From Pseudanabaena sp. UWO311 (lineage in GTDB: Bacteria; Cyanobacteriota; Cyanobacteriia; Pseudanabaenales; Pseudanabaenaceae), in assembly GCF_006937785.1 (NCBI RefSeq), contig NZ_SJEE01000018.1:1-64000 (forward strand): DNA of 64,000 nucleotides. Reading direction: 5' to 3'. Below are positions 23,143 to 51,981 of this stretch, one piece after another. Under the pieces are notes generated by a model. That model ran no database searches. It was not told where the DNA came from and saw nothing but the letters and a program-made list of their open reading frames with translations. Made by a program: the position numbers and the translations under genes. The first letter of the stretch is position 1. The number at the start of each line of letters is the position of its first letter.

Positions 23143-23613
23143 GGGAGAGTAAGCGTGTGGTTGCGAAATTTGTCTCAAAATAAACGAAAGGATATTTCGA
23201 GCACAAATTTTGAGGAAAGTCCGGGCTTCCACGAAGATCAGGCTGCTGGATAACGCCCAGTGCGAGCGATCGTGAGGATAGTGCCACAGAAAAATACCGC
23301 CCTTTGTAGACATGGCGCGAAGCGCTATGTCTACAAAGGGTAAGGGTGCAAAGGTGCGTTAAGAGCGCACCAGCAGAGTCGTGAGGCTCTGGCTCGGTAA
23401 ACCCCAGTTGGAAGCAAGGCGAGAGGATGCAAGTGTTGAGATCTTCAGTTGATCTTGTATCCGTTGCTTGATGTGGTGGTCTAGTGAAAACTAGGCGATC
23501 GCAATTAAGTGTGTGCCGCATGAGGTATTTGGTAACAAATATCCCAGATAGATAACCGCTAAGGCAGTTGATAAAACTCCTGAAACAGAACCCGGCTTAT
23601 GTCTTACTCTTTC
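23143..23613 (+). ncRNA. rnpB: RNase P RNA
   Basis: The catalytic core is unmistakable: GAGGAAAGTCCGGGC at 23212-23226, GATAACGCCCAGTGCG, then AGGATAGTGCCACAGAAA, GGTGCAAAGGTGCG, GCTCGGTAAACCCC, and the 3' AGAACCCGGCTTAT. The ends pair as helix P1 (GAGAGTAAG near 23145 with CTTACTCTTT near 23603). Helix P12 (23300-23340) is a 19-bp hairpin resembling the dispersed repeats of this genome. The RNA processes tRNA 5' ends with RnpA, whose gene is not here. An imperfect terminator-like hairpin follows at 23627. Confidence 0.97.
23300..23340. repeat. Hairpin forming helix P12 of RNase P RNA
   Basis: CCCTTTGTAGACATGGCGC pairs with GCGCTATGTCTACAAAGGG around GAA. The GGCGCGAAGCGC core is the same as in intergenic hairpins at 46549 and 47948. 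Confidence 0.85.
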
Positions 23614-23626
23614 TATTAAAATTCTC

Positions 23627-23962: not shown

Positions 23963-26389
23963 ATGGGAATTGCTCCCAACCATTCATCATTGCTCCCTGA
24001 GACGACCAATCGCATATCTCGCAAGTGGTCTGGTAGAGCAGTTGTAGGAATTACATTTATCTGCTTAATTTCAACCCTCAGCGTTCGTTTTTACTCTGAG
24101 CCACGCTTAGGAATCGGTACTTTTGTCGATCAAGATTTACGATCGCCAAGAACGATAACTGCGACTGATATTGAGGCAACTAAACAGGCAAAAGAACTAG
24201 CTAAACAACAAGTAACCCCGATCTATCGTAGCAATCCTGAGATGGATACTAATGCCATAAAGCACCTAGACGAACTCCTGCAAGTGGGCGATAACCTACG
24301 CATATCATCTGGTAACTTACCTTACGTCGATCGCAAAATCCTCAGTGATGACGTGCAACGCTATCTTAGACGGATCTCTAATTTGGATTGGTCACAGTTA
24401 CAAGACAGGGCTAATAAACTTGCTGCTAATGTCAATAATCAGGCTGCTATAGCTAGTTTTATCAATAGAGATAAAGAAGCTCCATCCATAGCACTGGCTG
24501 AGCTAACTCTATACAAAATAAATGCTCTTCCCCAAGACTATCAAAAGCTCATCAATACAGTGACTGATATTCGCAAAGCCTATGCAATAACTCAGCAGAA
24601 AGCCGCAAAAGGACCAGAGATGTTTCGAGATCGTCTCTTGGAGATGACCAATGAAGAATGGGAAATTTGTAAAAAACTGACAAGGCAAGCATTAATCGAT
24701 GTCCAGTCCACAGGAATTGTGGCTGGATTACCAGATGATATGTTGCAAAAACGGCTAACAAACCTGAGCAACTTACCGACAAATGAAGAGCATCGAGCTA
24801 TGTCGATTTCTTTGCTCAGTGCTACAGTCAAGCCCAATATGACGCTGGACTATGTGGGTACAACCGAAAGAGTGCTCAAAGCATCTGAATCAGTTCAGGC
24901 TCAGAGAATTTCACTTAAGGCTGGTGATTTAATTGTTAAGGGTGGGGAAAAAATTACTGAGCGACAATTCGTTATTTTGGACGAGCTAAAAATGACGCAA
25001 AGACAAGTCAATCTCAATGGATTGATCTTGATGGTCGCAACTACAGCAATCTGCTTTGGCATATTTGGCTATGCCAATCAGCGATGGCAATATTTACTCA
25101 AAGTAAAATTACATATTAAAGATCTATTAGCGCTTGGAATTATCTGCACTGGCAGTGCCTTAGCAACTGTGCTCATGGCTCCTAATATGCTTGTATTTCT
25201 CCCACTAGCAAGTGTCAGCCTAATCATCGGCAGCTTTTACAGCTCTCGACTTGCTCTCTTAATTACCTTCCTCACCTCAAGCTTACTAGCGCTTGCAATT
25301 AGTAGTGATTTGCTATTACTCACGCCTATAGTAATTGGGGCAATTGTTGCTGCGGCAATTACTAACCGCCCTCTTACGCGATCGCATTTAGCTGCAACAG
25401 GTTTACTAGTCGGCTTTTTACAAGCGGCTGTATATATTGCGATCGCACTTATTGCAGGTGCGACTCCACCAGTCTTGATCGCGATTACTGCGCTTCAGTA
25501 TGCATCAGGAGGACTGATTTCCGCGATCGTTGCTCTTGGAGCAATTCCTTATTTAGAGCATATTTCTTATGCATTAACCCCATTTCGTCTAGCAGAGCTT
25601 GCTAACCTTGATCGCCCTTTACTGCGCCGTTTAGTCACAGAAACCCCTGGGACATTTCAGCATACTTTATTTGTGGCAAACCTCGCCGAAGCTGCCGCCC
25701 GCGAGCTGGGAGCAGATACAGCCTTAGTAAGAACAGGTACGCTCTATCACGATATTGGCAAAACTCTCAGGCCTGAATATTTTATCGAAAATCAAATGGG
25801 GCAGCCTAACCCCCATGATCTACTTAACGATCCTTGGGAAAGTGCCCGAATTGTTAAAGAGCATGTTTCAGGGGGCATCAAATTAGCGCAAAAATACCAT
25901 CTTCCTGAAATGTTACAAGCATTTATTCCAGAGCATCAAGGCACAATCACGATTAGCTATTTTTATTGCCAAGCTCAAAAGCGCTCAAATCATCTAGTTG
26001 AAGCTGATTTTCAATATGCTGGGCCAATCCCTCAATCTCGTGAGACAGGAATTGTCATGTTGGCTGATGCCTGTGAAGCCGCTTTGCGATCGCTTGGCAC
26101 AGAAACAACTCTCGAAGCTGCCAAAAATCTGCTTATGAGAATTTTTCAAGCTCGATGGGATGACGGTCAACTCAAAGATTGCTCTTTGTCTTGGGAAGAC
26201 TTAGATCGGATTGCACCTGTATTTATCAAGGTCTGGCAAGAGCGCAATCATGGCAGAATTAAATATCCACACCTAGCAGACAAACTTGACCCTTCAGGCT
26301 CTGCTTTACCCGATCATCTTTGCAAACCAAAAGATTCAGTAACAGCTCAAATTCAGAAAGCAATATCAAAAAAAATTGCTTTGAAGTAA
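23963..26389 (+). CDS. 7TM-HD family phosphohydrolase, PgpH-type c-di-AMP phosphodiesterase
   Basis: 808 residues. Order: N-terminal membrane segment (about 28-46), a large extracytoplasmic 7TMR-HDED domain (about 50-345), seven membrane segments (about 355-545), and a cytoplasmic HD domain. The HD motif is LYHDIGK with H596-D597, after HTLFVANLAEAA and before EHVSGGIKLA and EHQGT, whose His residues complete the metal site. In Listeria the homologous PgpH hydrolyses c-di-AMP. By family, this is the probable c-di-AMP phosphodiesterase of the cell. It is notable that a c-di-AMP riboswitch is in the same window. A strong terminator follows. Confidence 0.9.
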   Translation: MGIAPNHSSLLPETTNRISRKWSGRAVVGITFICLISTLSVRFYSEPRLGIGTFVDQDLRSPRTITATDIEATKQAKELAKQQVTPIYRSNPEMDTNAIKHLDELLQVGDNLRISSGNLPYVDRKILSDDVQRYLRRISNLDWSQLQDRANKLAANVNNQAAIASFINRDKEAPSIALAELTLYKINALPQDYQKLINTVTDIRKAYAITQQKAAKGPEMFRDRLLEMTNEEWEICKKLTRQALIDVQSTGIVAGLPDDMLQKRLTNLSNLPTNEEHRAMSISLLSATVKPNMTLDYVGTTERVLKASESVQAQRISLKAGDLIVKGGEKITERQFVILDELKMTQRQVNLNGLILMVATTAICFGIFGYANQRWQYLLKVKLHIKDLLALGIICTGSALATVLMAPNMLVFLPLASVSLIIGSFYSSRLALLITFLTSSLLALAISSDLLLLTPIVIGAIVAAAITNRPLTRSHLAATGLLVGFLQAAVYIAIALIAGATPPVLIAITALQYASGGLISAIVALGAIPYLEHISYALTPFRLAELANLDRPLLRRLVTETPGTFQHTLFVANLAEAAARELGADTALVRTGTLYHDIGKTLRPEYFIENQMGQPNPHDLLNDPWESARIVKEHVSGGIKLAQKYHLPEMLQAFIPEHQGTITISYFYCQAQKRSNHLVEADFQYAGPIPQSRETGIVMLADACEAALRSLGTETTLEAAKNLLMRIFQARWDDGQLKDCSLSWEDLDRIAPVFIKVWQERNHGRIKYPHLADKLDPSGSALPDHLCKPKDSVTAQIQKAISKKIALK

Positions 26390-48447: not shown

Positions 48448-49273
48448 CTACTGATATCGTTCTAGAAAATCTAACGCTTGATTGCGTAATTCATAATATT
48501 CCGCTACCACGTCCTCGCAATTCGTGACGATCGCGAGGACGTGGTAGCGGAATATCTAGCACCTGACCAATCGTTGCTTTTGGTCCATTGGTCATCATCA
48601 CCACGCGATCGGACATAAAAATGGCTTCATCAACATCATGGGTAATCATCATCACTGCTTGGCGATGGTTTTCCCAAATATCTAAAACTTGCTGTTGTAA
48701 CTTTGGTCTAGTTAGAGCATCGAGCGCTCCAAATGGTTCATCTAGCAATAGCATTTTCGGACGAGTTGCTAAAGCGCGAGCAACCCCAACTCTTTGCTTC
48801 ATACCCCCCGAAAGTTCTTGGGGATATTTATCGGCGGCAGCAGTGAGATTGACCATTTCAATATGTTCGTTAACTATAGATATTTTTTCATCACGACTTG
48901 CGGTTTTAAATACTTCATCTACCGCCATGCGAATGTTTTCTCTGACTGTCAACCAAGGAAGCAACGAATAGCCTTGAAATACCATCATCCTCTCTGCCCC
49001 TGGTTTGCGAATGACTTTACCTTCTAGGGTGACTAAGCCTGATGTCGGTTTCTCTAAACCTGCCACAATTCTGACTAAAGTAGATTTTCCACAGCCAGAG
49101 TGACCAATTACAGAGACATATTCCTGCTCAGCGATCGCAAGGTTAATGCCATCTAGTACCACAAATTGACTGCCATCGGGTTTGCGAAATGACTTGACAA
49201 TATTTTCGACCACTAAAAAGGTTTTGTCAGGGGGATGGTTGTTAGATGTGGTGCTGCTTGGGGAAGTAGTCAT
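48448..49273 (-). CDS. ABC transporter ATP-binding protein, NrtD/CmpD type, with broken 3' end
   Basis: The open frame is 260 residues (stop at 48491-48493). It has Walker A GHSGCGKST, a Q-loop MVFQGYSLLPWLTV, signature LSGGMKQRVGVARA and Walker B MLLLDEPFGALD. The final conserved IPLPRPRDRHEL is followed by RGRGSGIL and a stop. In the +1 frame directly behind lies YYELRNQALDFLERYQ and a TAG at 48448-48450, the ending expected of this family. A 23-bp inverted duplication (48496-48555) sits at the break, so the last ~20 residues are lost or need a frameshift. The core ATPase is intact and may still work. It is the third gene of the riboswitch-led operon. Confidence 0.85.
48496..48555. repeat. 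Perfect 23-bp palindrome at the ATPase gene frame break
   Basis: Arms 48496-48518 and 48533-48555 flank a 14-base loop. On the minus strand the first arm encodes the conserved IPLPRPR segment; the second is its inverted copy, after which the ancestral reading frame is off by one. Confidence 0.95.
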
Positions 49274-51544: not shown

Positions 51545-51557
51545 GATTTGTAGTACC

Positions 51558-51600
51558 TTGTTTCAGAATGGACTGATGTGATCTGAAAGTCCAAACAAGA
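51558..51600 (-). promoter_or_regulatory. Possible expression platform hairpin
   Basis: On the minus strand CTTGTTTGGACT pairs with AGTCC and AAACAAG, with an ATTCTG bulge, just ahead of the permease ATG. It could cover the ribosome site and form the output of the riboswitch; no terminator is evident in this leader. Confidence 0.4.
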
Positions 51601-51663
51601 ATCCTGTTGAAACTGATACTAATCGTCAAAAAATTTTAACTTGCAGCGATCGCCATTTCCCAC

Positions 51664-51812
51664 AGTCTTCTCTCAATGCCTACGAGGTTAGCTGACGGGC
51701 TAGGACTGAGAGATGTCCTTTTTCAGATTCATTCTGAAAATACGCCCCTATGCTCTTAGAGAACTTGGTTCCCCCGTTTTTTGTTTTACTTTAGGTAATA
51801 ACTTAGAGATAA
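51664..51812 (-). ncRNA. Cyclic di-AMP riboswitch (ydaO/yuaA type)
   Basis: On the minus strand the leader carries the class hallmarks in order: CGGGGGAACC (near 51777-51768), GGGGCGTATTTT (where the class has GGGTGAATC), a stem, AAGGAC...GTCC, and the near-invariant CCCGTCAGCTAACCTCGTAGGC block, of which the key parts are CAGCTAACCTCG and TAGGC (51680-51700). Closing stem P1 could be TCTCT/AGAGA. The aptamer binds c-di-AMP and usually turns expression off. It lies 120 bases ahead of the permease gene, so the ABC operon should be under c-di-AMP control. The exact ends are approximate. Confidence 0.9.
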
Positions 51813-51816
51813 TACC

Positions 51817-51850
51817 AATTCACGAAAGTGTGGCTACACTTTCGTGAATT
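51817..51850. repeat. Family A hairpin, composite copy 1
   Basis: AATTCACGAAAGTGT pairs perfectly with ACACTTTCGTGAATT around GGCT. Directly upstream of the riboswitch on its strand; followed there by GGTATTAT. Confidence 0.9.
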
Positions 51851-51876
51851 AAAAATCAAACCCTGTAAGGGTTTTA

Positions 51877-51909
51877 AAAACACAAAATGGCTACGCCATT
51901 TTGTGTTTT
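51877..51909. repeat. Family B hairpin, composite copy 1
   Basis: AAAACACAAAATGGC pairs perfectly with GCCATTTTGTGTTTT around TAC, 26 bases from the family A hairpin. Confidence 0.9.
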
Positions 51910-51951
51910 GGGATAAAACAAAAATTAGGCTGACTTACTCAGTTGCACAAA

Positions 51952-51981
51952 GATATATCACCATTTTTTTTAACATGTCAA
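51952..51981 (-). promoter_or_regulatory. Candidate promoter of the riboswitch-ABC operon
   Basis: On the minus strand TTGACA (51981-51976) is followed after 16-18 bases by GATATA/TATATC (51959-51952). Transcripts would start near 51945, so the leader would include hairpins B and A and then the riboswitch. Confidence 0.45.

Follow-up and report, generated by a model that had tools for sequence, protein, structure and literature searches.

A c-di-AMP riboswitch carrying an inserted repeat in front of a nitrate-transporter-like ABC operon of Pseudanabaena

Among the described systems closest to the one discussed here, the c-di-AMP riboswitch of the Bacillus thuringiensis kdp genes is an OFF switch that works by transcription termination (PMC6488665). 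For cyanobacteria, a passage of PMC5986932 cites Nelson 2013 as tying such riboswitches to osmoprotectant synthesis and transport, and a passage of PMC10117731 cites as verified the c-di-AMP riboswitch of Synechocystis slr0753, a putative chloride efflux transporter; in the literature that we examined, no cyanobacterial target of the riboswitch other than slr0753 is named individually. On the transporter side, the comparison is with the bicarbonate importer CmpABCD (BCT1) and with the nitrate importer NrtABCD, whose NrtA protein has the pocket residues H196 and K269 (PMC8786288).

Here, we consider one leader in a 64,000-nucleotide stretch of Pseudanabaena sp. UWO311 (contig NZ_SJEE01000018.1, positions 1 to 64,000; “the window”), where the initial annotation had placed a c-di-AMP riboswitch before an ABC transporter operon of the nitrate/bicarbonate type. 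Is it a riboswitch, in which direction would it act, and what might the importer carry? We hold, with somewhat better than even confidence, that the leader is a c-di-AMP riboswitch acting on translation as an OFF switch, that the importer belongs to an ion/osmotic regulon and not to nitrate or bicarbonate supply, and that the switch may work with a repeat inserted in it. No mention of the operon was found in the literature searched; the Nelson 2013 catalogue, which may already include the association, lay outside that search.

The aptamer and the repeat in its P2 loop

Homology and conserved linkage identify the leader (51940-51545, minus strand) as a c-di-AMP riboswitch of the ydaO/yuaA class (RF00379), belonging to the permease-SBP-ATPase operon that follows it (Table 1; SBP, the binding protein). 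A covariance search of the window matched RF00379 at 51807-51663 (minus strand) with 74.5 bits, over the gathering score of 38 (E-value 1.9e-15 over the window), and the same kind of search over the whole 5.2-Mb genome gave this single copy. Both of the class hallmarks that had been claimed from the sequence are in place, CGGGGGAACC at 51776-51767 and CCCGTCAGCTAACCTCGTAGGC at 51699-51678. The leader exceeds the curated threshold of the class and has the core letters that are invariant in cyanobacteria and the P1 and P2 architecture. A CUCUCA loop and a UGAGAG tail, both conserved in the cyanobacterial leader alignment, are complementary in sequence and may form the long-range loop-tail pairing of the class. 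It departs from the class in its P2 loop, which holds an inserted 99-bp repeat, and in its target, an Nrt-like ABC importer. In single-sequence folding, the minimum-energy fold of the whole window leader is no better than that of shuffles (z -1.1).

Table 1. Features of the locus (positions in the window; all on the minus strand)
Feature	Positions	Strand	Basis or detail
Promoter-like TTGACA ... TATATC, just upstream of aptamer	51952..51981	-	conservation in relatives
Complete c-di-AMP aptamer, including inserted repeat	51663..51940	-	RF00379, relatives compared, folding
True 5' strand: GAGTAAGTCAGCC 51940-51928, with P1 GCC 51930-51928; P2 5' arm UUUUUGUUUUA 51924-51914	51914..51940	-	TGAGTAAGTCAGCCTAAT match
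99-bp palindromic MITE-like repeat in P2 loop; TTATC flanks 51916-51912 and 51812-51808	51813..51911	-	relatives, copies
P2 3' arm UAAAACAAAAA	51778..51788	-	folding
Conserved core CGGGGGAACC	51767..51776	-	RF00379, cyanobacterial alignment
Conserved core CCCGUCAGCUAACCUCGUAGGC; P1 3' strand GGC 51680-51678	51678..51699	-	RF00379, cyanobacterial alignment
Hairpin H-A 5' arm GAAGACUGU, putative anti-sequestor	51662..51670	-	covaries with 3' arm over ABC leaders
H-A 3' arm ACAGGAUUC 51607-51599 and adjoining putative anti-Shine-Dalgarno GUUUCA 51613-51608	51599..51613	-	
Shine-Dalgarno region CUGAAACAAGG	51556..51566	-	complementary to anti-Shine-Dalgarno
ABC permease, NrtB-like, 277 aa	50711..51544	-	PF00528 (BPD_transp_1); TIGR01183 239 bits, cut-off 209
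Tat-type lipoprotein SBP, cluster F-I fold, 464 aa	49301..50695	-	PF13379 (NMT1_2)
ABC ATPase, NrtD-like, 260 aa	48491..49273	-	TIGR01184 345 bits

The extent of the aptamer needs some care. The interval first proposed for it, 51545-51812, does hold the Rfam match, and it leaves outside the true 5' strand of P1 and P2 (51940-51914), which the Rfam match also misses. Most cyanobacterial leaders in our alignment start with TGAGTAAGTCAGCCTAAT; in three close relatives, a string of this type precedes the Rfam match by about 35 nt, and its counterpart in the window is at 51940-51928, with an extra 104 bp before the match. Because this 104-bp insertion separates the true 5' strand from the rest, the Rfam match assigns bases of the P2 loop to P1; when the insert is taken into account, the 5' strands of P1 and P2 are located at 51930-51914. 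The promoter-like TTGACA/TATATC pair is identical in close relatives, one of which differs by a single spacer base, and TTGACA-N17-TA---T stands at the equivalent place in several other cyanobacteria. At another locus (L202, 1222-1366, minus strand), the leader of the same operon has an aptamer with a near perfect 3' half and a divergent 5' half (29.5 bits), and it is a degenerate or variant c-di-AMP riboswitch.

The insertion is made up of the 99-bp repeat (51911-51813) and a duplicated TTATC, and the orthologous site is empty in three relatives (G018, G010, and G020). The genome contains some 40 copies that are complete or almost so, most of them 89-98% identical, and in it the palindromes of the repeat were counted and found to be widespread; short, multi-copy, flanked by a target-site duplication, and facing an empty site in relatives, the repeat is MITE-like. 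A second, related palindromic copy lies upstream of the riboswitch (52176-52084, minus strand) and is present in G020 and absent in G018 and G010.

Can an aptamer absorb such a guest? By prediction, the repeat folds into a structure of its own and leaves P2 intact, so that the switch may still work; in folding, the P2 pair probability is 0.79-0.99 with the insert, against 0.76-1.0 in an insert-free relative. The repeat also contains terminator-like hairpins, which may block transcription. One could thus suppose that repeat and hairpins silence the operon or uncouple it from its aptamer, as part of a loss that runs through the genus, and we regard this as a real possibility, although one that falls short of probable. 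The system is decaying in the genus: the operon is kept in 8 of 26 genomes and the riboswitch in only 4 of those 8, the leader of G004 has decayed, and the permease and SBP reading frames of G025 are broken. The insertion, moreover, is found only in this strain among four riboswitch-bearing relatives, and the C-terminal tail of the ATPase is altered here (260 aa vs. 273 aa in relatives). Because of the genus-wide loss and the altered tail, the copy in the window may itself be decaying. Against a dead switch stand the predicted pairing of P2, the wide variation of P2 loops in other leaders, and the state of the permease and the SBP, which are intact and 97-99% and 94-99% identical to their relatives, respectively. 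In the region of the ATPase tail (48500-48570, minus strand), a 23-nt tract and the sequence immediately upstream of it form a perfect inverted repeat, each the exact reverse complement of the other, as might be left by a template switch or by an assembly artefact.

A predicted translational platform and its direction

Downstream of the aptamer, in the leaders of the ABC operon, the tail GGAGACUGA pairs with UCAGUGUCC (in the window, GAAGACUGU with ACAGGAUUC) in a conserved hairpin that we call H-A. Over 16 distinct arm pairs, 102 of 112 cells are paired, vs. 96.5 after column shuffling, and none of 2000 column shuffles reached that pairing, a kind of test that the kinship of the sequences inflates. 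Taken leader by leader against shuffled downstream sequence, H-A is not significant; it is significant only across leaders. The duplex between the anti-Shine-Dalgarno strand and the Shine-Dalgarno region averages -10.5 kcal/mol over 40 leaders, compared with -5.7 for shuffled sequence (kinship inflates this difference as well), and the window's own duplex is weak (-6.4, p 0.07). The 3' region of H-A overlaps or adjoins the anti-Shine-Dalgarno strand, and its 5' strand borders on the tail of the aptamer and shares part of it. H-A and sequestration of the Shine-Dalgarno region would thus compete, which suggests translational control, and by covariation and duplex energies, the control of the operon is probably translational. 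In this, the predicted platform would differ from the terminator of the Bacillus kdp case.

The scheme that we propose has two states. When c-di-AMP is low, the tail after P1 would form H-A (51670-51662 with 51607-51599), and the Shine-Dalgarno region would stay accessible. At high c-di-AMP, the aptamer would fold and, through P1 and the loop-tail contact CUCUCA/UGAGAG, would hold the tail, the 3' region of H-A would sequester the Shine-Dalgarno region, and the importer would be shut off. By analogy with the tested Firmicute cases, we infer that c-di-AMP represses the importer operon.

Might the sign be reversed? Under an ON switch, c-di-AMP would increase expression, as might serve osmolyte uptake during salt stress; osmotic and salt stress do alter c-di-AMP levels in cyanobacteria (PMC5986932), and a two-state leader does not by itself fix the direction of the response. 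We nevertheless judge this quite unlikely: the kdp riboswitch that has been tested is OFF (PMC6488665), and an H-A 5' strand that adjoins and in part overlaps the aptamer tail fits repression better.

Spread and partners of the riboswitch

How far does the pairing of riboswitch and importer extend? We sampled 386 cyanobacterial genomes and called orthologs at a cut-off of at least 65% identity to the SBP, the next relatives standing at 44%. RF00379 occurs in 93 of the 386 genomes (141 sites over cut-off), an SBP ortholog occurs in 54, and in 48 of these 54, RF00379 lies directly upstream of the operon. The 48 paired operons fall under 14 family codes, and the riboswitch lies 946-1268 nt before the SBP gene; of the six others, two lack the riboswitch, two are split by contig ends, one is truncated at a contig end, and one scores under the threshold. 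Counted by named loci, the covariance model finds it in 74 of 80. The proposal of a c-di-AMP riboswitch before an Nrt/Cmp-like operon is upheld, and the two go together across the phylum.

Such control had also been called unusual, which it is relative to Firmicutes but not among the sampled cyanobacteria, where the operon is the commonest first target. At the 120 sites whose downstream sequence was read, the first recognised gene after the riboswitch belongs to the ABC operon in 47 cases, to an SLC13/CitMHS-type permease in 28, and to Usp in another 28, with GT4 glycosyltransferase (4), CPA2 antiporter (3), ExoD (2), and P-type ATPase (1) more rarely. The slr0753 system shares with ours a cyanobacterial c-di-AMP riboswitch regulon in which, here, SLC13/CitMHS-type permeases form a second target class (slr0753 is presumably homologous to that class); its own target is a secondary permease, whereas ours is an ABC operon.

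Around the operon cluster other targets of the riboswitch. In neighbourhoods of up to 5 kb on each side at the 80 named loci and 4 others, Usp is present in 25, an SLC13-type permease in 23, and ExoD in 9. Two loci carry tandem riboswitch triplets, GT4-ABC-Usp in L229 and SLC13-ABC-Usp in L268; in G039 the next gene after the operon encodes KdpA, and in G170 a KdpD-type protein is encoded two genes downstream. Because the partners of the operon are other genes with c-di-AMP riboswitches (SLC13-type, Usp, and ExoD), with kdp in two genomes, a classical ion/osmotic role is suggested, and because the pairing with the riboswitch recurs across cyanobacteria, the importer is probably part of a salt/ion-balance programme and not of the supply of nitrate or bicarbonate. 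At two further loci, in two genomes (L090 and L091), riboswitch-controlled Usp genes are followed by an acetate-kinase-like gene.

As for the messenger itself, the genome encodes a protein with a diadenylate cyclase domain. The gene at 23963-26389 (plus strand), which had been put forward as a c-di-AMP phosphodiesterase, does encode a 7TMR-HD protein of the phosphodiesterase type; it is 25 kb distant and shares no operon with the importer genes. Directly upstream of it is an RNase P RNA (23145-23615, plus strand; 244 bits).

The importer and what it may carry

The operon itself was correctly read as permease, Tat-lipoprotein SBP of the NrtA/CmpA class, and ATPase, as PF00528, PF13379, TIGR01183, and TIGR01184 confirm. 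The RR motif of the SBP is nearly invariant among orthologs. In its AlphaFold model (pLDDT 84), the nearest solved structures (9uai, 2g29, and 2i4b) are those of the CmpC/NrtC regulatory domain, NrtA, and CmpA, and both fold and sequence family place the protein in cluster F-I.

Why not, then, accept a nitrate or bicarbonate importer under c-di-AMP, with the messenger tied to nitrogen or carbon supply, as first proposed? The fold of the SBP is indeed nearest to NrtA, CmpA, and the CmpC regulatory domain, the permease and the ATPase pass NCBIfam “nitrate” models, and c-di-AMP binds SbtB while dacA mutants change the expression of carbon-concentrating genes (PMC10117731). The same genome, however, separately encodes nirA-nrtABCD-narB-like, cmpABCD-like, and cynABD-cynS-like clusters (genes were named from recognisable sequence and, for the NrtA and CmpA proteins, from alignments with 2g29 and 2i48). 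At the positions of NrtA H196 and K269, Tyr and Arg stand in all 30 full-length SBP orthologs, Gln and Glu in CmpA, and His and Cys in the CynA-like protein of the same genome, so that neither the NrtA pocket (His196 and Lys269) nor the CmpA-type pocket (Gln and Glu) is kept in any of the 30. Trp and a positive charge, the Arg, are retained.

With NrtABCD, the operon shares the SBP fold (model vs. 2g29, TM 0.91 by target length), an NrtB-like permease, and an NrtD-like ATPase; it differs in having three genes, Tyr and Arg for His196 and Lys269, and neither narB nor nirA. No NrtC with a C-terminal regulatory domain and no nearby nitrate-assimilation genes were found at the three-gene operon, the nrt operon being elsewhere. 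With CmpABCD (BCT1), it shares the cluster F-I fold, and by sequence the nearest relative of the SBP is the CmpC regulatory domain (38-39% identity to the genome's own NrtC/CmpC-type proteins); it differs in lacking CmpC, in having Arg for the Glu of CmpA, and in that a cmp operon is present separately. Nor was cynS found adjacent to the operon; on contig C19, a cynS-like gene accompanies a different SBP/permease/ATPase set. A Synechocystis-type guanidine importer was tried and set aside: no guanidine-hydrolase-like neighbour was noticed, and the gene order of that operon presumably differs from the order here.

Within the Nrt/Cmp-type family, the SBP falls into a clade apart, with an invariant pocket of its own. 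Given the separate nitrate, bicarbonate, and cyanate systems, that clade and pocket, and neighbours that are ion and stress genes and include no narB, nirA, cynS, or carbon genes, the link to carbon or nitrogen supply is not supported; nitrate or bicarbonate supply is an unlikely role, and the reading first proposed as a whole is quite improbable. Most likely, we would suggest, the importer takes up a small anion or an osmolyte within the cyanobacterial ion/osmotic c-di-AMP regulon.

A larger claim can be built on this, which we offer as rather unlikely: that an unrecognised, phylum-wide c-di-AMP module exists in which the Nrt-like small-anion importer, the SLC13-type permease, and Usp each have a riboswitch of their own on a shared translational platform, with the riboswitch here tolerating a mobile palindromic repeat. 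If this were true, the small anion might be a counter-ion of K+, such as chloride.

Databases would label this operon a nitrate transporter. Its near-constant pairing with the riboswitch, together with the distinct pocket and the genes around it, would instead place it in a c-di-AMP ion/osmotic regulon, and the repeat lodged in its aptamer is a natural experiment in the size of insert that the loop of a riboswitch can take up.
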